Source: Lentisphaerae bacterium GWF2_38_69 (lineage in GTDB: Bacteria > Verrucomicrobiota > Lentisphaeria > Victivallales > GWF2-38-69). Taken from it: a stretch of DNA of 44,473 bases. The stretch spans positions 1 through 44,473 of the forward strand of contig MHBE01000001.1 in NCBI GenBank assembly GCA_001803205.1, written 5' to 3'. A model generated the notes under the pieces. The model had not been told where the DNA came from. It searched no databases and saw only the letters and a program-made list of their open reading frames with translations. A program made the position numbers and the translations under genes. This document shows, piece after piece, positions 118 to 11,431 of the stretch. How positions within the stretch are numbered: the stretch's first letter is position 1; each line of letters starts with the position of its first letter.

Positions 118-824
118 ACTGATATTACAAAGATAAAATGCTAAAAACAAACAATATTGCCAGTGGAACATATCCTTCAATAATATGCTGGCCTCCCAGT
201 GAATCGTGAGACATATAAAACATAAAAGCATATTGCAGCAGCAGGTAAATCCCAAGGCAGATTGTTACAGACACTATAATTGCTACTGGTAAAGCCACTC
301 TCGGATTTTTTGCGTCTCCTGCGAGTTCCGCGCGGCAAGTTTAAAACCGTTAAAAGCAAAGAAGATTCCGCCTGTAGATATTGCGGTAAGCACTCCAAAG
401 TTTCCCCGAGGCATTACTATGCTGATTTTCGTCGTGCCAATATGATAGAAAATTATATGAAAGATAATAAAGAGAGAAATCGTAATAGGCAGAATTATTT
501 TTATTACTGTGATATAGCTGTTAGCCTTAATAATCCATCTTACCGAATAAACGCTTATGATAGTAAAACAAAGAATGCATAAATAAAGCTCAGAAAAACG
601 CCATGTGAAAGATAAGGTATTCTGGCGCTCGAACCTATAATAGGAATCATTGTGCAGATTTCGGGGAATACAAAAGCAATTATAATTACCAGAACTGCCC
701 CCAATATTCATGAGATTAAAGAAGCCGAACCAGAATAGGAAAATGTATATGCTGCTGCAAATAGCCAGCCTGAACCTAGAATTGCGCTTATGGATGCAAA
801 TAAAATTTCAAATATGCTAAGCAT
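118..824 (-). pseudogene. Broken APC-family amino-acid permease
   Basis: Conceptual translation across all three minus-strand frames gives recognisable pieces of an amino acid-polyamine-organocation permease. The N-terminal piece starts at 824 (MLSIFEILFASISAILGSGW) and runs to an in-frame TGA near 713, where the family usually has Trp. The same frame continues beyond it with the EICTMIPIIGSSARIPYLSHG type of motif. Another frame carries the GGIFFAFNGFKLAA segment near 330-370. A further frame carries GDAKNPRVALPVAII (about 320-270) and ends at a stop near 165. At least one nonsense change and two frameshifts are needed to connect them, so this is a decayed transporter. A run of ten G (minus strand) lies nine bases before the start. 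Family assignment is from motif memory. The exact 3' limit is uncertain. Confidence 0.75.
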
Positions 825-993: not shown

Positions 994-3900
994 TTACATT
1001 GGCCTGTTTTTTCTTGAGATGAATTTTTCATGAACTCTCTGCATGGCGATGAAAACGCCGGGAGTGATATAAAGAGTAATTATTTGCGAGAAAATCATTC
1101 CGCCGACAATGATAAGCCCGAGAGAACGCCTTACAGAACCGTCTGTTCCGTATCCAAGAGCGATTGGAATAGCGCCCATTATCGTGGTAAGCCCTGTCAT
1201 TAAAATGGGTCTGAATCTTACAAGGCAGGCATTGTGAATTGCTTCCCTTGGAGGAACTTTCTTCTTCATCTGCTGAATGGCAAAATCTACCATCATAATA
1301 CCGTTTTTCGCGACTATGCCTAAAAGAAGGAATATGCCTACATAGGCATATAATGAGAGGTCGGCTCCAAAAAGTAAAAGCGTCCCTATCCCGCCAACTG
1401 TAGCGGTGGGAAGAGTGGTTAAAACAGTGAAGGGGTGTATGAAGCTTTCATAGAGAATTCCCAAAACAATATATTTAAGAAATACCGCAATGAGAATCAG
1501 GATAAGAAAACTTTTGATAGTATCTAGGAACTGCTGGATTTCCCCCTGGAATAAACCTCCAATTTCAGAGGGGAAAATTGATGCGGTATATTTTTTTATT
1601 GCATTGGCAGCTTCTTCCATGCTTACCCCTGTGGCAATGTTGAAAGAGATTGTCGCGGCAGCCAATTGCTGATAATGAGTTACCGTTGAAGGTGTCACTG
1701 TGGTATACCACTGCGTAATTGTCGAAAGAGGAATAAGTTTACCTGTCGTAGAGGATTTTACATAGATATTGTCCAGCGCGTCAGGAGAAAGAGCGTATTC
1801 TTCCTTTGCTTCAAGTATTACGTCATAAGTATTTGTGCCCTTATTGAACTGAGTGAAGGCATAATGGCTGAAAGCTGATGTAATTGTTTGTTCAATATTG
1901 GACGCGTCGACTCCCAGGCTGGAAGCTTTCTGTCTCAGAATTGAGAGTTTTATTACCGGCATATTAAGTTCGACATCTGTCTGTACATCAGTGAAGCGTT
2001 TGTCTTCCTGCATTTTATCCAGCAATATCCCAGCGTATTTATCAACTTCGTTTTCGTCGATACCGGTAACAAGGTAGGAATATTGTGCTCCCTGTGCTGT
2101 GCTCTTGGCTCCCGTGGCAATAGAAAGAACTGGTTTCGGCAGCAGGTAAACTGAGGCTATATTGTAAGGAATCTCAGAAATATAATTTCGCATATTACTA
2201 ATAACGGTATTCATGCTCGGCCGTTTTGAAGGATCTTTGAGCATAGCCAGCATAAATCCGCCGGACTGATCAGCTCCTTCACTGGAACCAGTTATGGTGA
2301 AAAAGCGGTCAATATTTGGATCTTTATTCATATCCTGATCAAGGTATGATTGGAACTTTTGCATTTGAGGGGCGGAGATACCAAGAGGGCCTTTTATCTG
2401 CCCGATTATAATTCCGCTGTCGCCTAGCGGTATGAAATTTTTCGGAGTCCAAATATAGAAAATGACTGTCCCTGCTATGCAAATAGCCCAGAGCAAGAAA
2501 GCTATTGAAGGCTTATCCAGAAATATATTAAGGGATTTTGAGTAAGCTGAAATTATTTTCCCAAGAAATCTATCCTTAAAAATTTCAAATTTATTTTTTT
2601 TGAAGGGAGAAAAAGGAGAAAGCATATATGCGCTCATCATTGGAGTAAGAGTCAGAGAGAGCAGACAGGAAGCAAAGATAGTTATTATTACCGTTATAGA
2701 AAATTCTCTGAAAGTTTTTCCCACTATTCCCGGCATAAATACTATGGGGAGGAAAACTATTGCGAGCGAAACAGTCATTGAAATAATAGAAGGCATAATT
2801 TCTTTGGCGCTGTTGATAGAGGCCTGGAATGGAGACTGGCCATTTTCAACATGGCGGACAGTATTTTCGAGGACGACGATTGAATCATCAACGATGAATC
2901 CTATAGCAAGAATAATTGCCATCAGAGAGAGATTGTCTATGGAGTAGCCCAGGAAATACATTACAAGGAAGGTAAATACGATAGTAATCGGAAGAGTTAT
3001 TCCCGGGATTATAGTGTCTTTGATTTTTCCAAGGAAAATGTAAATAACAATCAGGACGAATATAAAAGCGAGGATTAGCGTCGTTTCGACATCAGCTATA
3101 GATCTGATTATGGTTTTGGATGAATCCTGAACTATCTCGACTCTGACATCTTTAGGCATCTGAGCCGTTGCCTTTGCCAGCAGTTCTTGAACAGCCTTGG
3201 AAAGTTCAACGGTATTTGCGTCTGATTTCTTTGTGAGAGCCAGCATAATGGGATTTTTGATAGGTTTTTGACCTTTTTTATAATAATCCATGCAGAAATT
3301 TCTGTTTTCGGAAGAGAAAGTGGCTTTTCCTATGTCTTTTATTCTGACCGGTCGATTGTTCTCATATTTAACTATAAGCTCATTATAATCGATAGGTTTT
3401 TTCAGCTGGGCATCTGCCTCGATAGTATAGGTCTGTGAATTATTGCTTATGGTTCCTCCGGATGACATGATATTCTGGGCATTAATCGCATTGTTGACAT
3501 CATTTAAGGTTACACCCATTGAAGACATAAGTTTCGGATCTACATCGACTCTTACAGCATAAGACGCGCCGTTTATGTCTACTTTTGATACGCCGTCTAG
3601 CATGGTCATCGGCTGAACTATCCTATCGTTGACTATATCGTAGAGTTTAGACCTTGAGAGCTTGTCTGAGTATGCCATTATATACATTATCGGTCTATCG
3701 GAAGGATTGTATTTGGAGAAAGTCGGCTCAAGAACGCTTTTAGGGAGATATTGCATGGATTTTGAAATTGCGCTTTGAATATCAGGGATGAGTTCATTTA
3801 CCTTCAAATCAGGCTGGAATGTGAGCATTATTTTTGACCAGCCATCGGTATTTACTGAAAGGATATTTTCAATGCCTGAAATCTGCATGCACTGCTTTTC

Positions 3901-4101
3901 TATCGGATTTGCCACTGATGTAGCCATAGATTCCGGGCTGGCTCCGCTGTTAAAAGCCCAAATGGTTACTACGGGATATTCAATAGTAGGAAGGTCTGAG
4001 ACAGGCAATCTGAAATATGTCGCTATACCGAAAACAACTACTGCTACCATTATCAGAATAGTCGCTACAGGCCGTCTGATGAAAATTTCTGAGAAGTTCA
4101 T
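994..4101 (-). CDS. RND-family (HAE1) inner-membrane efflux pump
   Basis: At 1035 aa this has the usual AcrB/MdtB length and architecture: an N-terminal membrane helix (MNFSEIFIRRPVATILIMV), a periplasmic porter domain, a membrane block, a second porter domain and a second membrane block. The proton-relay pair is present (VDDS, residues about 404-407), as is the Lys-Asn of the tenth helix (AKNGIMMVDF). The pump therefore looks functional. It would exchange protons for hydrophobic compounds, working with the adaptor encoded just upstream and with an outer-membrane TolC-type channel not encoded here. The two genes are two bases apart on the minus strand and form one operon, which lies behind a cobalamin riboswitch. 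The substrate cannot be read from sequence. The pair is of the hydrophobe/multidrug class rather than an obvious heavy-metal (CzcA) type. Confidence 0.93.
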   Translation of the reverse strand: MNFSEIFIRRPVATILIMVAVVVFGIATYFRLPVSDLPTIEYPVVTIWAFNSGASPESMATSVANPIEKQCMQISGIENILSVNTDGWSKIMLTFQPDLKVNELIPDIQSAISKSMQYLPKSVLEPTFSKYNPSDRPIMYIMAYSDKLSRSKLYDIVNDRIVQPMTMLDGVSKVDINGASYAVRVDVDPKLMSSMGVTLNDVNNAINAQNIMSSGGTISNNSQTYTIEADAQLKKPIDYNELIVKYENNRPVRIKDIGKATFSSENRNFCMDYYKKGQKPIKNPIMLALTKKSDANTVELSKAVQELLAKATAQMPKDVRVEIVQDSSKTIIRSIADVETTLILAFIFVLIVIYIFLGKIKDTIIPGITLPITIVFTFLVMYFLGYSIDNLSLMAIILAIGFIVDDSIVVLENTVRHVENGQSPFQASINSAKEIMPSIISMTVSLAIVFLPIVFMPGIVGKTFREFSITVIITIFASCLLSLTLTPMMSAYMLSPFSPFKKNKFEIFKDRFLGKIISAYSKSLNIFLDKPSIAFLLWAICIAGTVIFYIWTPKNFIPLGDSGIIIGQIKGPLGISAPQMQKFQSYLDQDMNKDPNIDRFFTITGSSEGADQSGGFMLAMLKDPSKRPSMNTVISNMRNYISEIPYNIASVYLLPKPVLSIATGAKSTAQGAQYSYLVTGIDENEVDKYAGILLDKMQEDKRFTDVQTDVELNMPVIKLSILRQKASSLGVDASNIEQTITSAFSHYAFTQFNKGTNTYDVILEAKEEYALSPDALDNIYVKSSTTGKLIPLSTITQWYTTVTPSTVTHYQQLAAATISFNIATGVSMEEAANAIKKYTASIFPSEIGGLFQGEIQQFLDTIKSFLILILIAVFLKYIVLGILYESFIHPFTVLTTLPTATVGGIGTLLLFGADLSLYAYVGIFLLLGIVAKNGIMMVDFAIQQMKKKVPPREAIHNACLVRFRPILMTGLTTIMGAIPIALGYGTDGSVRRSLGLIIVGGMIFSQIITLYITPGVFIAMQRVHEKFISRKNRPM

Positions 4102-4103
4102 TT

Positions 4104-5276
4104 TTATCCTTTTATTGTGGCTGTATCTGGTTTTGAATCATCAGTAATTACATTTACTTTTGCGCCTGAATAAAGATTCTGGAGCCCGACTGTGACTATT
4201 CTATCGCCTTTGGATATGCCTGATTTTCCAGAGAGCACGAAATAATTTTCATAAATTTCGAGAGTGCTAACTTCAACTGTTTCTGCAATATTGTCCTTAT
4301 TTATTTTATAGAGGTAACGGCCTTCGGGTCCTAGTTGGACTGCTTCTTTCGGAACAAGTACAGCATTGGCTCTTGTTCCTATAATGAGTTTTATATCTGC
4401 AAACTGTCCAGGGAGCAGATTGTTAGAGGAGTTGTCCACTTCAGCTCTTAACGGGATAGTGCCTGTCTGAGGATCTGCTGTATTGTTTAAAAAAGTGAGC
4501 GTTCCTTCGTAGTGGTCTTTTTTGGTTACATAAGAATTTGTCTCCTTCATAATGTAAATCATGATTTTCAGAGATCCTTCAGTCATTGCTTTTTTGAGTC
4601 TAGCTATATCTTTTTCCGGAAGAGCAAAGTCTATGTAGAGTTTACTTATGTCTTTAATGTTAAAGAGCACATCGGAAGTTGTCACATAGTTGCCAATATC
4701 TACATTATTAATTCCTATTACACCATCTATAGGAGAACGAATGTAGCAGTGATCCAGATTAATTTTATCCAAAAGCAGCTTAGCTTTGTCCGTTTCAAGT
4801 TTGGCTAGCGAAGATTCCAGGTCAGTCTTCATCTTCTGAAAGTCCTGTTTTGCCATTGCGCCTTTTTCGACAAGCGGAGCATTTTTGTCAAAAAGGTATT
4901 TTTTAAATTCAGCATCAGCCATGTCTTCTTCGACTACTGCCTTGTCGCTAAGACAGTTTGCTTCATAAATTGCAGTATCAAGGGTTACGAGAAGTTCTCC
5001 GGTTTTTACATCTGCAGCTTTTGTGAAAAGAATCTGATTTATCTTTCCTGAGACTTCAGGTTTTACATTTACATTCTGAGATTCAGTTAGATTGCCGAAT
5101 GAATCAATATAGATAGGAATATCTTTTTCTATTGCTTCTTCAGTCTGAACATTCAGTGCGGTAATGCCGGGAGTTGTATGCTGTTTTTCGCATGAAGAAA
5201 GAAATATAAGATATATTGGAAGCAGAGTTAAAATCAATATTTTTATGGATTTTATTTTTGGAAGTGTTCGATTCAT
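4104..5276 (-). CDS. RND periplasmic adaptor lipoprotein (membrane fusion protein)
   Basis: This 390-aa protein has an N-terminal signal with a lipobox (IFLSSC, Cys29), so it is predicted to be lipid-anchored. The order of parts is typical of MdtA/AcrA adaptors: a first biotinyl-lipoyl half (VNVKPEVSGKINQILF), a helical hairpin rich in Glu, Lys and Leu, a second lipoyl half (CYIRSPIDGVIGI), then beta-barrel and membrane-proximal domains (LLPGQFADIKL, VLVPKEAVQLGPEGRYLY). It bridges the inner-membrane pump at 994-4101 to an outer-membrane channel. The start is supported by an AGGAG about 7 bases upstream (near 5284). The leader before it holds a terminator and a cobalamin riboswitch, so the operon is probably repressed when cobalamin is plentiful. 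Confidence 0.9.
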   Translation of the reverse strand: MNRTLPKIKSIKILILTLLPIYLIFLSSCEKQHTTPGITALNVQTEEAIEKDIPIYIDSFGNLTESQNVNVKPEVSGKINQILFTKAADVKTGELLVTLDTAIYEANCLSDKAVVEEDMADAEFKKYLFDKNAPLVEKGAMAKQDFQKMKTDLESSLAKLETDKAKLLLDKINLDHCYIRSPIDGVIGINNVDIGNYVTTSDVLFNIKDISKLYIDFALPEKDIARLKKAMTEGSLKIMIYIMKETNSYVTKKDHYEGTLTFLNNTADPQTGTIPLRAEVDNSSNNLLPGQFADIKLIIGTRANAVLVPKEAVQLGPEGRYLYKINKDNIAETVEVSTLEIYENYFVLSGKSGISKGDRIVTVGLQNLYSGAKVNVITDDSKPDTATIKG

Positions 5277-5297
5277 GTCTTCTCCTGGTTTATCTAA

Positions 5298-5347
5298 AAA
5301 AAAACGCTATCTTCAGTTGTTAAGCAACTGAAAAGATAGCGTTTTTT
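5298..5347 (-). terminator. Intrinsic terminator (riboswitch expression platform)
   Basis: A perfect stem made of AACGCTATCTT and its complement, extended inward by a second CAGTTG/CAACTG stem, is followed on the minus strand by a run of T. It lies between the cobalamin aptamer and the adaptor start codon, exactly where a transcription-terminating expression platform belongs. A-runs on the other side make it potentially bidirectional. Confidence 0.85.
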
Positions 5348-5396
5348 ATCTTCTCAAGCTAATATCTCCCAACCTCGGGGAAATATAACATTGAAC

Positions 5397-5551
5397 AATA
5401 AGCAGGTCTTCTGGCTTCCGGATCACTTTACTTGCCGGCCTTCCCGCAGTTTTTTCCTCTGCAGTGGCATGTGGCTTTCATTCCCGGTTACAGCGGCGGG
5501 TCCGCAACGGATTCGCACCGTTTTCCCTATTATGCATTTACTGCGCTTATT
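5397..5551 (-). promoter_or_regulatory. Cobalamin (B12) riboswitch
   Basis: Read on the minus strand, the segment carries the diagnostic pieces of the cobalamin aptamer in order. These are a closing P1 strand AATAAGC, the GGGAA...CGGTGCGAATCCG block, CCCGCCGCTGTAACCGGG, ATGCCACTG, GGGAAGGCCGG, the B12-box-like GCCAGAAGACCTGC, and the P1 partner GCTTATT. A terminator hairpin and then the RND adaptor gene follow on the same strand. Known family behaviour is that cobalamin binding favours the terminated state and lowers downstream expression. Confidence 0.95.
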
Positions 5552-5554
5552 TTG

Positions 5555-5583
5555 ATTATTTCAATATCATAATCATATGACAA
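5555..5583 (-). promoter_or_regulatory. Promoter for the riboswitch-RND transcript
   Basis: A TTGTCA box (5583-5578), a 17-base spacer and an AATAAT box (5560-5555) on the minus strand place transcription initiation close to 5548, right at the start of the riboswitch P1 helix. The spacing and position fit a sigma-70-type promoter. Confidence 0.6.
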
Positions 5584-8053: not shown

Positions 8054-9031
8054 ATGTCTAAGTTTAAAACAGCATTAACAGTTTTGTCATGTCTGGCAAC
8101 GCTTTTAGTCGTATCATGCTCAAAAGAAAATGCACAAGAAGCAAAGAAAGATTTAATAATTTTCCATGCAGGAAGTCTGAGTTTGCCAGTTAAACAGATG
8201 AAAGAAGCATTTGAGAAAGAGAACCCAGGTGCCAATATTATTAGTGAAGCTGACGGAAGCGTGATGTGCGCAAGAAAGATTTCCGACCTTAATAAACCCT
8301 GCGATGTTTTTATGTCCGCTGATTATAAGGTGATTGACGATATACTTGTTCCGAAGTATGCAGACTGGTGCATAAAATTTGCTTCCAACCAGATGGCTAT
8401 TGTATATACGGATAAATCAAAATACGCATCTGAAATCAATGACAGCAACTGGTATAAGATACTGGAAAAACCCGATGTAGTCTGCGGCAGATCCAATCCT
8501 AATGATGATCCATGCGGATACAGAGCTCTGCTTACTCTGAAACTTGCTGCAATATACTACAAAGACCCGGGACTTTATGACGCGATTGTTCATAATAAAA
8601 AATCTAAAGATGTTCTTATGAGATCGAAAGAGGTAGATTTAATATCATTGCTTCAGGTCGGACAGTTAGACTATATTTCCCTCTATCGTTCTGTAGCCAT
8701 ACAGCATGGTTTTAAGTTTGTCGAACTTCCTCCTGAGATAAACCTTGGCGATTCAAAATTCGAAAAGTATTATGCTCAGGTTTCTCTTGATATTACCGGA
8801 AATAAGCCAGGCTCGGTTATTAATCAGAAAGGAGAGCCTATGACCTACGGTTTGACTATCCCTAAGAATGCGCCGAATCCTGAGCTTGCTATGAAGTTTG
8901 TCAAATTTGTTCTGAGCAAAAACGGCGGTCTTAAAATAATGGAAGACAATGGACAGCCATCTGTCGTTCCCAGTCCTACATCGACTTATAAAGAGTTACC
9001 GCAACCTTTGAAGCAATACGCTTCTGAGTAA
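8054..9031 (+). CDS. wtpA: Molybdate/tungstate ABC transporter substrate-binding lipoprotein (WtpA/ModA-like)
   Basis: This 325-aa protein has a signal peptide with lipobox LVVSC (Cys22). The oxyanion-binding fold follows: FHAGSLS (37-43), EADGSVMCARKISD, DVFMSADYKVID, then FASNQMAIVYT and GRSNPNDDPCGYRALL. These are characteristic of the archaeal-type WtpA/TupA molybdate/tungstate binding proteins. It delivers the anion to the permease and ATPase encoded downstream. A GAAGGAA ribosome-binding site precedes the ATG. The gene for the cognate permease does not follow directly: a four-helix-bundle gene with repeat-like flanks sits between them. Molybdate versus tungstate specificity is not decidable from sequence alone. 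Confidence 0.9.
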   Translation: MSKFKTALTVLSCLATLLVVSCSKENAQEAKKDLIIFHAGSLSLPVKQMKEAFEKENPGANIISEADGSVMCARKISDLNKPCDVFMSADYKVIDDILVPKYADWCIKFASNQMAIVYTDKSKYASEINDSNWYKILEKPDVVCGRSNPNDDPCGYRALLTLKLAAIYYKDPGLYDAIVHNKKSKDVLMRSKEVDLISLLQVGQLDYISLYRSVAIQHGFKFVELPPEINLGDSKFEKYYAQVSLDITGNKPGSVINQKGEPMTYGLTIPKNAPNPELAMKFVKFVLSKNGGLKIMEDNGQPSVVPSPTSTYKELPQPLKQYASE

Positions 9032-9034
9032 ATC

Positions 9035-9069
9035 CTAAACACTAAACACTAAACACTAAACTCTAAACA
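9035..9069 (+). repeat. CTAAACA heptad tandem repeat
   Basis: Five consecutive 7-bp units of CTAAACA, the fourth with one substitution, start four bases after the wtpA stop codon. They form the left flank of the S23-like element. A related AAACACTAAAC stretch occurs in inverted orientation on the right flank at 9481-9492. Confidence 0.75.
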
Positions 9070-9095
9070 AATATTAAATTCAAAATTTATAAACA

Positions 9096-9461
9096 ATGGA
9101 AGAAAAACGAAAATTATATGATCTTGAAGAAAGAACATTAGTTTTTGCTAAAAGTATCAGAAGTTTCGTTAAGGCGCTTCCAAGAAATTTAGCAAATATT
9201 GAAGATGCAAAGCACCTGATTCGTTCTTCAGGCTCAATTGGCGCAAATTACAGAGAAGCAAATGAATCACTAGGGAAAAGAGATTTCTTTATGAGGATAA
9301 GAATATCCAGAAAAGAAGCCAAAGAGTCAATATTTTGGCTTGAACTTATAGATGTTGGAAATAATACAGATTTGGATAGACAACGGAGAGATTTAATTGT
9401 TGAATCAACAGAGTTGATGAAGATTTTTGGTTCAATATTGCAGAAAAGCGGATCAGTTTGA
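9096..9461 (+). CDS. Four-helix-bundle protein (S23/23S IVS-encoded family)
   Basis: This 121-aa, charged, all-helical protein has the hallmark centre of the four-helix-bundle (TIGR02436/S23) family: LIRSSGSIGANYREANES (residues about 47-64), then RIRISRKEAKESIFWLEL. The founding members are encoded inside 23S rRNA intervening sequences, and relatives include the diversity-generating-retroelement accessory protein Avd. No reverse transcriptase or template repeat is visible nearby, so an Avd role is unlikely. No ribosome-binding site precedes the ATG. The protein has no known link to molybdate transport. Its inverted-repeat flanks suggest an inserted element rather than an operon member with a transport job. 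Cellular function is unknown. Confidence 0.85.
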   Translation: MEEKRKLYDLEERTLVFAKSIRSFVKALPRNLANIEDAKHLIRSSGSIGANYREANESLGKRDFFMRIRISRKEAKESIFWLELIDVGNNTDLDRQRRDLIVESTELMKIFGSILQKSGSV

Positions 9462-9518
9462 GATTTATGAATTAGAATTTGTTTAGTGTTTATAGGTTCG
9501 AATTTCGGATTTTAAATT

Positions 9519-10325
9519 ATGAATAATTTCAATCCATTCAGACTTCTTCTTATCCTCTTTGGAGGACTGGTGATGCTTTTTATTCTCGCGCCTCTGGTTT
9601 CCATGGGGCTTAGCTCGCAATTCGGAACACTTGTTGAAACTGCCAAAGACAAAGAGGTTTATGAGAGTATCTGGCTAACATTATGGACATCTATTCTGAC
9701 AACTTTTTTATTTTCCATTTTGGCTATTCCGTTTTCATATTTTCTGGCAAGAAACAATTTTCCTTTGAAGAAACTTCTGTGCGGTTTGATAGATATCCCC
9801 GTTATGATTCCTCATTCTGCAGCCGGTATTGCAATATTAGGAATAATAGCAAGAGGTTCTCCTTTTGGCAGTTTCTGTTCTGAATATTTAGGTTTAAGTT
9901 TTATTGACCATCCCTCAGGGATAATGATAGCTATGGCATTTATAAGTCTTCCGTATCTTATAAATGCTGCCAGAGATGGATTTGAAGCTGTTCCTGTGCA
10001 GCTTGAGAAAGCTGCCTATACGCTTGGAGCGTCTCCTTCAAAAGTGTTTTTCAGGATAAGCCTGCCTCTTGCATGGAGGGCGATACTGTCAGGTTTCGTC
10101 ATGATGTGGGGCAGGGGTTTAAGCGAATTCGGAGCTGTTGTAATAATAGCATACCACCCGATGGTTACTTCGGTATTGATTTTTGACAGATTCAATACTT
10201 TCGGCCTTAAATACGCACAGCCTGTTTCTGTCTTATTTATAATAATCTGTATAATAGTCTTTATACTCTTCCGGATGCTTTCAGGCAAAACCAGAAAATC
10301 TTCTGACTATTCAAGGTATGGGTGA
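9519..10325 (+). CDS. wtpB: Molybdate/tungstate ABC transporter permease
   Basis: This 268-aa membrane protein has about six hydrophobic segments and the binding-protein-dependent permease loop (EKAAYTLGASPSKVFFRISLP, residues about 163-183) that contacts the ATPase. Other ModB/WtpB-type features are IDIPVMIPHSAAGIAIL and GRGLSEFGAVVIIAYHP. It forms the inner-membrane channel for the oxyanion delivered by the lipoprotein at 8054-9031. Its stop overlaps the ATPase start by four bases (GTGA), indicating translational coupling. No clear ribosome-binding site precedes its ATG, whose upstream sequence is the right flank of the S23-like element, so expression may have been altered by that insertion. 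Confidence 0.92.
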   Translation: MNNFNPFRLLLILFGGLVMLFILAPLVSMGLSSQFGTLVETAKDKEVYESIWLTLWTSILTTFLFSILAIPFSYFLARNNFPLKKLLCGLIDIPVMIPHSAAGIAILGIIARGSPFGSFCSEYLGLSFIDHPSGIMIAMAFISLPYLINAARDGFEAVPVQLEKAAYTLGASPSKVFFRISLPLAWRAILSGFVMMWGRGLSEFGAVVIIAYHPMVTSVLIFDRFNTFGLKYAQPVSVLFIIICIIVFILFRMLSGKTRKSSDYSRYG

Positions 10326-11431
10326 GGAAAGTGATAAGACTTGAAGCGATAAATAAAAAGTTTACAGGGTTTGCTCTTAAGGATGTGAATATTGAGGTTT
10401 CCAATGGTGAATACTATGTGCTTTTAGGCAGATCCGGTTCAGGAAAGAGCCTGATACTTGAAATCATTGCAGGTTTGCAGAAACCTTCATCCGGAAAAGT
10501 CATTATTAATGGCAGAGACATAACTTCTCTTCCTATCCATAAGAGGAGAATAGGATTTGTATTTCAGAACCAGTCTCTATTTCCCCATATGACTGTCAGA
10601 GAGAATATAAAATTTGCCCTCAATTCAAAAGAAAGAATTTTGCAGCAAAGTAATATCGATAATTTATCGGATTTTCTTAACATCCTTCATCTTATGGAAA
10701 GATTTCCCCTTTCTCTGTCTTTAGGAGAATCTCATAGGGTCGCGCTTGTCAGGACACTTGTTACCAATCCTTCATGTCTTCTTCTTGACGAACCTCTTTC
10801 TTCTCTTGATGCTCAGTCCAAATATGAAATCCGAAGTCTGCTCAGGAAAATAAATCAGGGAATAGTTTATTTCGGAGAAAGCAATAAAAATAAGCCTATG
10901 ACTGTAATTCATGTGACTCACGACTATGAGGAAGCCTTGGCTTTATCTACAAGAATCTCGGTAATAGAAGAGGGGCTTATTACTCAGGAAGGGAAACCCC
11001 AGGAGGTTTTTAGACACCCTAAGTCTTCTTTTATAGCCAAGTTTATAGGCATTAAAAACTTCTATAGAGGCCATATCTCTAAATCAGACGACTCTGATAT
11101 CTGTAAATTTGAAGTAATCAATGAAGATGAAAACTATTTATATTTCAGTGTTCCGAAACCGGAAATATTTACCCAGGAAGAGTACAGCTTAACTATCAGA
11201 AGCGAGGATGTGATTCTTTCTTTGGACAAGATTGAGTCCAGTGTAAGGAATATATTTCATGGAGTCATTACGGATATCGAAAATGCAGTTAACGGCGTGG
11301 AAATAACTGTGGATATTGGAGGATTGGACATATCATCACTTATTACTTACGGGTCATTTAAAAAGATGAATCTTCAGTTAAAACAGACTGTTTACGCCGG
11401 ATTCAAGGCTTCAGCAGTTAGATTTGCTTAA
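10322..11431 (+). CDS. wtpC: Molybdate/tungstate ABC transporter ATP-binding protein
   Basis: This 369-aa ATPase powers the WtpAB transporter. Walker A is GRSGSGKS (36-43), the Q-loop lies around FVFQNQSLFP (79-88), Walker B and D-loop are LLLDEPLSSLD (153-163), and the H-loop is in VIHVTHD. The signature reads SLSLGESHRVALVRT (131-145), so the usual LSGGQ is changed at its third and fifth positions, a variation seen in this transporter class. The C-terminal 120 residues resemble the TOBE/oxyanion-sensing domain of ModC/WtpC. The GTG start overlaps the permease stop by four bases. An alternative GTG at 10331 would remove three residues. It ends one base from the convergent gene at 11433. Confidence 0.92.
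   Translation: MRKVIRLEAINKKFTGFALKDVNIEVSNGEYYVLLGRSGSGKSLILEIIAGLQKPSSGKVIINGRDITSLPIHKRRIGFVFQNQSLFPHMTVRENIKFALNSKERILQQSNIDNLSDFLNILHLMERFPLSLSLGESHRVALVRTLVTNPSCLLLDEPLSSLDAQSKYEIRSLLRKINQGIVYFGESNKNKPMTVIHVTHDYEEALALSTRISVIEEGLITQEGKPQEVFRHPKSSFIAKFIGIKNFYRGHISKSDDSDICKFEVINEDENYLYFSVPKPEIFTQEEYSLTIRSEDVILSLDKIESSVRNIFHGVITDIENAVNGVEITVDIGGLDISSLITYGSFKKMNLQLKQTVYAGFKASAVRFA

Follow-up and report, generated by a model that had tools for sequence, protein, structure and literature searches.

A cobalamin riboswitch with an intrinsic terminator precedes an RND efflux operon in a Lentisphaerae bacterium and in a second genus of its family

The window (the whole 44,473-nucleotide stretch analysed, MHBE01000001.1 1–44,473, from the genome designated G000) carries on its minus strand a riboswitch leader followed by an RND operon of two genes. 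The first gene (4104..5276, (-)) encodes a MdtA-like RND periplasmic adaptor of 390 aa with a lipoprotein-like N terminus (TIGR01730, PF16576) and is separated by 2 bases from the second (994..4101, (-)), which encodes a HAE1/MdtBC-like RND permease of 1035 aa matched by PF00873 over its full length. Both proteins are intact, with the adaptor scoring 234.4 bits against RND_mfp (TIGR01730, cut-off 94.9) and the permease 870.6 bits against ACR_tran (PF00873) over residues 3–1020. The proton-relay residues of the permease, D405 and D406 in TM4, K932 in TM10, and R962 and T969 in TM11, are present, and the corresponding motifs read GFIVDDSIVVLE, GIVAKN, and RFRPILMT.

The nearest solved structure to the permease is the MdtB chain 9lyq. 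Its scores against the NCBIfam models for MdtB/MuxB (774.9, cut-off 1584), MdtC (817.6, cut-off 1774), and RND_permease_2 (972.1, cut-off 1250) all stay under the cut-offs, and the protein is consequently described as MdtBC-like, not as MdtB or MdtC. Against the CusA/CzcA family it scores 354.5 (cut-off 701.45) and is not of the metal type by that cut-off. The system shares with MdtABC/MuxABC the MdtA-like adaptor, a MdtB/C-like permease, and the proton-relay residues, but differs in having one permease rather than two, in the riboswitch ahead of it, and in lying outside the curated families. No outer membrane factor gene was found from the pump to the contig end, and many RND operons lack an outer membrane factor of their own; the one gene in this interval is a partial amino acid permease gene (283-711 (-)), restricted to positions 124-216 of PF13520 and probably a pseudogene. 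The adaptor search found no relatives in viral contigs. Elsewhere in the window, a molybdate/sulfate-type ABC set (binding protein, permease, and ATPase; 8054-11431 (+)) is broken at 9096-9461 by a small gene whose product resembles four-helix-bundle (S23) proteins.

Upstream of the adaptor gene lies a complete cobalamin riboswitch aptamer (5383..5565, (-)), as the sequence-only reading had proposed. A covariance-model search with RF00174 matched 5565-5383 (-) at 112.6 bits, above the gathering threshold of 31.5 (E 1.5e-27), and the match covers model positions 1-189. The conserved core of RF00174 (GCCACUG, GGGAA..CGGUG, and AGCCAGAAGACCUGC) is present in the window alignment and is mostly kept across three leaders, that of the window and two from G001, a MAG from another genus of the same family. 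This is the one cobalamin riboswitch found in G000 (3.12 Mb, 95% complete). The aptamer is followed by a P13-like hairpin (5362..5386, (-)) with the loop CCGAGGUU, identified from the leader sequence and folding; the loop CGAGG is preserved in the G001 leaders, on a stem that differs. A consistent partner for this conserved loop, as for an L5-L13 kissing contact, was sought by plain base pairing and not found.

Between the aptamer and the adaptor gene lies the expression platform, an intrinsic terminator (5296..5346, (-)) recognized from sequence and fold, with a stem-loop of ∼20 bp at about 5346-5302 and a U-run that ends at 5296. The ribosome binding site AGGAG (5282..5286, (-)) and the adaptor ATG at 5276 follow, with no gene between leader and adaptor. 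The coordinates and the domain scores thus agree with the order described earlier, in which the terminator leads to the RND adaptor and pump without an intervening element.

Folding predicts the P13-like hairpin and the terminator in all three leaders. A 20-nt attenuator core, AAGATAAAAAACGCTATCTT, has one match without mismatches in the window against 0.04 expected, matches the second G001 riboswitch leader at 20/20 positions and the G001 pump leader at 17/20, and was not found in the other riboswitch leaders examined. The terminator stem of a G001 leader shows a compensatory C-G to U-A change, and five stem pairs of the terminator and P13 are retained despite two-sided changes in a comparison of three sequences. 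When the transcript is truncated just after the 5′ arm of the terminator, this arm is predicted in all three leaders to pair instead with an upstream GAAGAUA, which is conserved and reads GAGGAU in G001 contig 83. The resulting possible antiterminator hairpin (GAGAAGAUA / UAUCUUUUC; 5330..5355, (-)) uses the terminator 5′ arm and is predicted to be far weaker than the terminator; switching must therefore be kinetic or rely on contacts outside the fold model. In the minimum-energy fold of the full-length window leader, P1, an extended P13, and the terminator coexist, which fits an OFF switch. Cobalamin riboswitches typically repress, as nearly all of those tested do, and we infer an OFF polarity for the window riboswitch from this class norm together with the full-length fold. 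It would follow that when a cobamide is plentiful (adenosylcobalamin or another accepted form) the aptamer and P13-like hairpin permit the terminator to form and the pump is off, and that when cobamide is scarce the terminator 5′ arm pairs alternatively, allowing read-through and synthesis of the pump.

The promoter of the leader is less clear. A region combining a possible promoter with the 5′ strand of aptamer P1 (5545..5594, (-)) was marked by a consensus scan with weak matches, including two candidate −10 boxes, AATAAT (5560-5555) and TATGAT (5571-5566). The combination TTGTCA-17-AATAAT at 5583-5555 is one among 36 promoter-like matches in 8 kb, against 22 expected by chance, and transcription starting ∼7 nt past the AATAAT box would truncate the 5′ strand of P1 (AAUAAGC, 5551-5545). 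The promoter claimed previously for this leader is accordingly weak. An aroG-like gene lies 60 bp upstream of the leader, and a promoter farther upstream or read-through from this gene is equally possible.

The same order of riboswitch, terminator, adaptor, and pump is found on contig 83 of G001 (JAJXWI010000044.1), so that the pairing looked for among relatives is present in a second genus. G001 and G002, a third genus, make up the family sample besides G000, and no cobalamin riboswitch was found in G002. The window pump is 47% identical to the riboswitch-borne pump of G001, and the proteins overall are 38-47% identical. The two riboswitch-borne operons form a clade with a riboswitch-free G001 paralogue (support 100/99 for the pump and 97/99 for the adaptor), whose leader, on contig 116, lacks even a weak RF00174 match. 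A scan of named genomes with the adaptor alignment gave close kin only in G001. That genome has two cobalamin riboswitches, one before the RND operon and the other before a terminator and an orphan gene (L032:416-2481(-)) for a secreted or membrane protein of 580 aa with C-terminal repeats, to which no Pfam, NCBIfam, or PHROG family was matched. Another G001 protein (L031:5538-6692(-)) has a C-terminal motif like a MYND-type zinc finger, which is unusual in bacteria.

The window aptamer is 60% identical to that of the G001 pump leader and up to 65% identical to other aptamers. As these aptamers are not mutually closest, a common origin of the leaders is argued from the attenuator core and not from the aptamer. 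The simplest history to which the sequences point is one ancestral leader in the family followed by duplication and loss, with transfer as a conceivable alternative. The riboswitch very probably governs the RND pump downstream of it.

To place this arrangement more widely, ∼135 above-cut-off cobalamin riboswitch loci from 137 genomes of the order and a sample of 388 genomes of the phylum were searched for RND adaptors and pumps, within flanks of 1.5-3.5 kb of which some were ended by contig ends, so that a few cases may be missed. Judged by the Lentisphaera-type pseudopilins and Akkermansia-like proteins met in related genomes, this phylum is taken to be Verrucomicrobiota in the broad sense. 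An RND operon lies downstream of the riboswitch at only two of these loci, in the window and on G001 contig 83. The genes downstream of the others, called from N-terminal sequences read by eye, look mostly conventional (TonB-type receptors, BtuF-like, CobT-like, and CbiK-like proteins, MetE, NrdD, and a cobopeptide maturase), and some are orphans. Elsewhere in the phylum, no listed riboswitch adjoins the closest adaptor homologues on their contigs. L197 (G203) was considered as a third case and rejected, its RND adaptor and pump being divergent, on the opposite strand, and upstream of the riboswitch.

The survey also brought out other arrangements. Some cobalamin riboswitches head cobopeptide systems, in which genes for a small peptide and for a CbpB radical SAM maturase follow (L033:3599-4999(-), L034, L035, L037, L041, L043, L046, and L278); the maturase of L033 scores 660.7 bits against TIGR04163 (cut-off 375), and the other loci were assigned by sequence likeness. 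These loci belong to other families within the order, with at least one elsewhere in the phylum. A pseudopilin-like gene (FTLIELLVVIAIIAILA) follows lower-scoring riboswitches of the order (L048, L106, L107, L108, L112, and L116), with a BtuF-like gene next after it in L048, L112, and L116. At L045 and L103 the gene after the riboswitch is ThiC/BzaF-like and may function in lower-ligand synthesis.

In a survey covering 197 genomes and 535 cobalamin riboswitch sites, the only targets given are B12 synthesis, transport of B12 or its precursors, cobalt transport, and B12-independent isozymes (PMC3766115). Efflux is missing from these four classes, in keeping with the earlier remark that the target is unexpected. 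Typical RF00174 riboswitches likewise have a complete aptamer, a P13-like hairpin, and a terminator, and the window riboswitch differs from them by its RND efflux target. Among exporters linked to cobalt chemistry, CzcABC and CnrABC have the common RND architecture, but the window pump is HAE1-like; they are metal-induced and not governed by cobalamin (PMC7689651). The literature searched, outside which most subscription papers lie, yielded no account that links a cobalamin riboswitch to an RND or multidrug efflux system. Within that literature, the parts appear ordinary, the combination new, and its lineage range narrow, and the window pump is the first RND pump found so far under a B12 switch.

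The gene content of G000 bears on what such a pump could serve. CbiC was not found in G000; there are two CobA/BtuR-type proteins, and none of the PduO type was found. CobS adjoins CobU-like and BtuF-like genes, and the one BtuC-like permease scores under curated cut-offs. The B12 users of G000 include MetH, methylmalonyl-CoA mutase (1199 bits), whose gene adjoins that of a methylmalonyl-CoA decarboxylase, and several B12 radical SAM enzymes, and a corrinoid methyltransferase protein has an activase-like protein nearby. No cobalamin riboswitch was detected at the other B12-related genes of G000, the RND operon alone having one. Because CbiC is missing, CobA and CobS are present, and B12-dependent enzymes are encoded, the organism is most likely a corrinoid salvager, apparently without corrin-ring synthesis. 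This apparent lack makes export of its own corrin precursors unlikely, which goes against the self-made part of the earlier idea that precursors are exported. A second, different RND operon (MdtABC-type, two permeases) starts ∼100 bp beyond cobS and has the same orientation, in a neighborhood (G000:C3:27960-39530; L185, L186) that runs from BtuF-like, CobU-like, and CobS genes through this operon to a homocysteine methyltransferase-like gene. The neighborhood was not found in G001 or G002, given which the proximity may be coincidence.

With moderate confidence, it is proposed that the cobalamin riboswitch controls the RND operon by attenuation, off when cobamide is plentiful, and that the most likely task of the pump is in the salvage or handling of corrinoids during shortage. 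For an apparent salvager that depends on B12 enzymes, acquisition or handling of corrinoids under shortage is the most likely role, in which the pump would secrete a scavenging factor or clear non-functional corrinoids or lower-ligand by-products; any such substrate is a guess. It can be suggested tentatively that the pump is dedicated to B12 acquisition, secreting a siderophore-like scavenger of corrinoid or cobalt at shortage, or expelling useless corrinoids so that useful ones load. Enterobactin is exported by MdtABC, AcrB, and AcrD (PMC4178200), and these siderophore-exporting RND pumps would offer a parallel, an exporter used for scavenging a scarce nutrient, if the window switch is OFF at high B12. 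They differ in that they export a known scavenger, whereas the window pump is paired with no known scavenging compound or biosynthesis, and the genes adjoining the pump include none for a secreted scavenger.

Derepression at low B12 would also suit a pump that exports a metabolite harmful when B12-dependent enzymes stall, such as products of the propionate/methylmalonate branch or homocysteine-related compounds. This follows the same OFF logic, and the mutase and decarboxylase genes side by side and MetH in G000 speak for it. However, HAE1 pumps favor larger amphiphilic compounds over small acids, and the pump has no gene link to these enzymes, which leaves such a role possible, if somewhat unlikely. 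An ON switch, with the pump expelling excess or wrong corrinoids at high cobamide, appears improbable: the P1 3′ side and next bases of the window leader can pair with the antiterminator strand, a geometry from which ON logic could result, but this pairing is absent from the G001 pump leader, and the repression by nearly all tested cobalamin riboswitches stands against it as well.

It is more doubtful still that an ordinary multidrug pump came under the riboswitch after the original target gene was lost, so that the control would be functionless for the pump. The RND family is numerous, with eight adaptor-type matches in G000, and an unrelated orphan gene stands behind the other riboswitch of G001, both of which would suit such an accident. 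Against this, two genera share the arrangement and retain the attenuator core although identity between their pumps is only 47%, and the riboswitch concerned is the sole cobalamin riboswitch of G000. A last alternative, termination of the riboswitch RNA with separate transcription of the adaptor gene from a promoter of its own, has nothing found in its favor and is scarcely credible: the ATG (5276) comes only ∼20 bases after the U-run (5296), the ribosome binding site lies in this gap, and such a promoter would have to sit within the riboswitch.

With control of the RND operon by the riboswitch, the cobalamin regulon gains a gene class, that of drug-type RND exporters, and a regulatory clue is provided to what an RND pump naturally does, a matter that is usually obscure. 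The arrangement suggests that export may belong to the response of B12-dependent bacteria to corrinoid shortage, and a corrinoid-related substrate, if one were found, would add a new step to the B12 economy.
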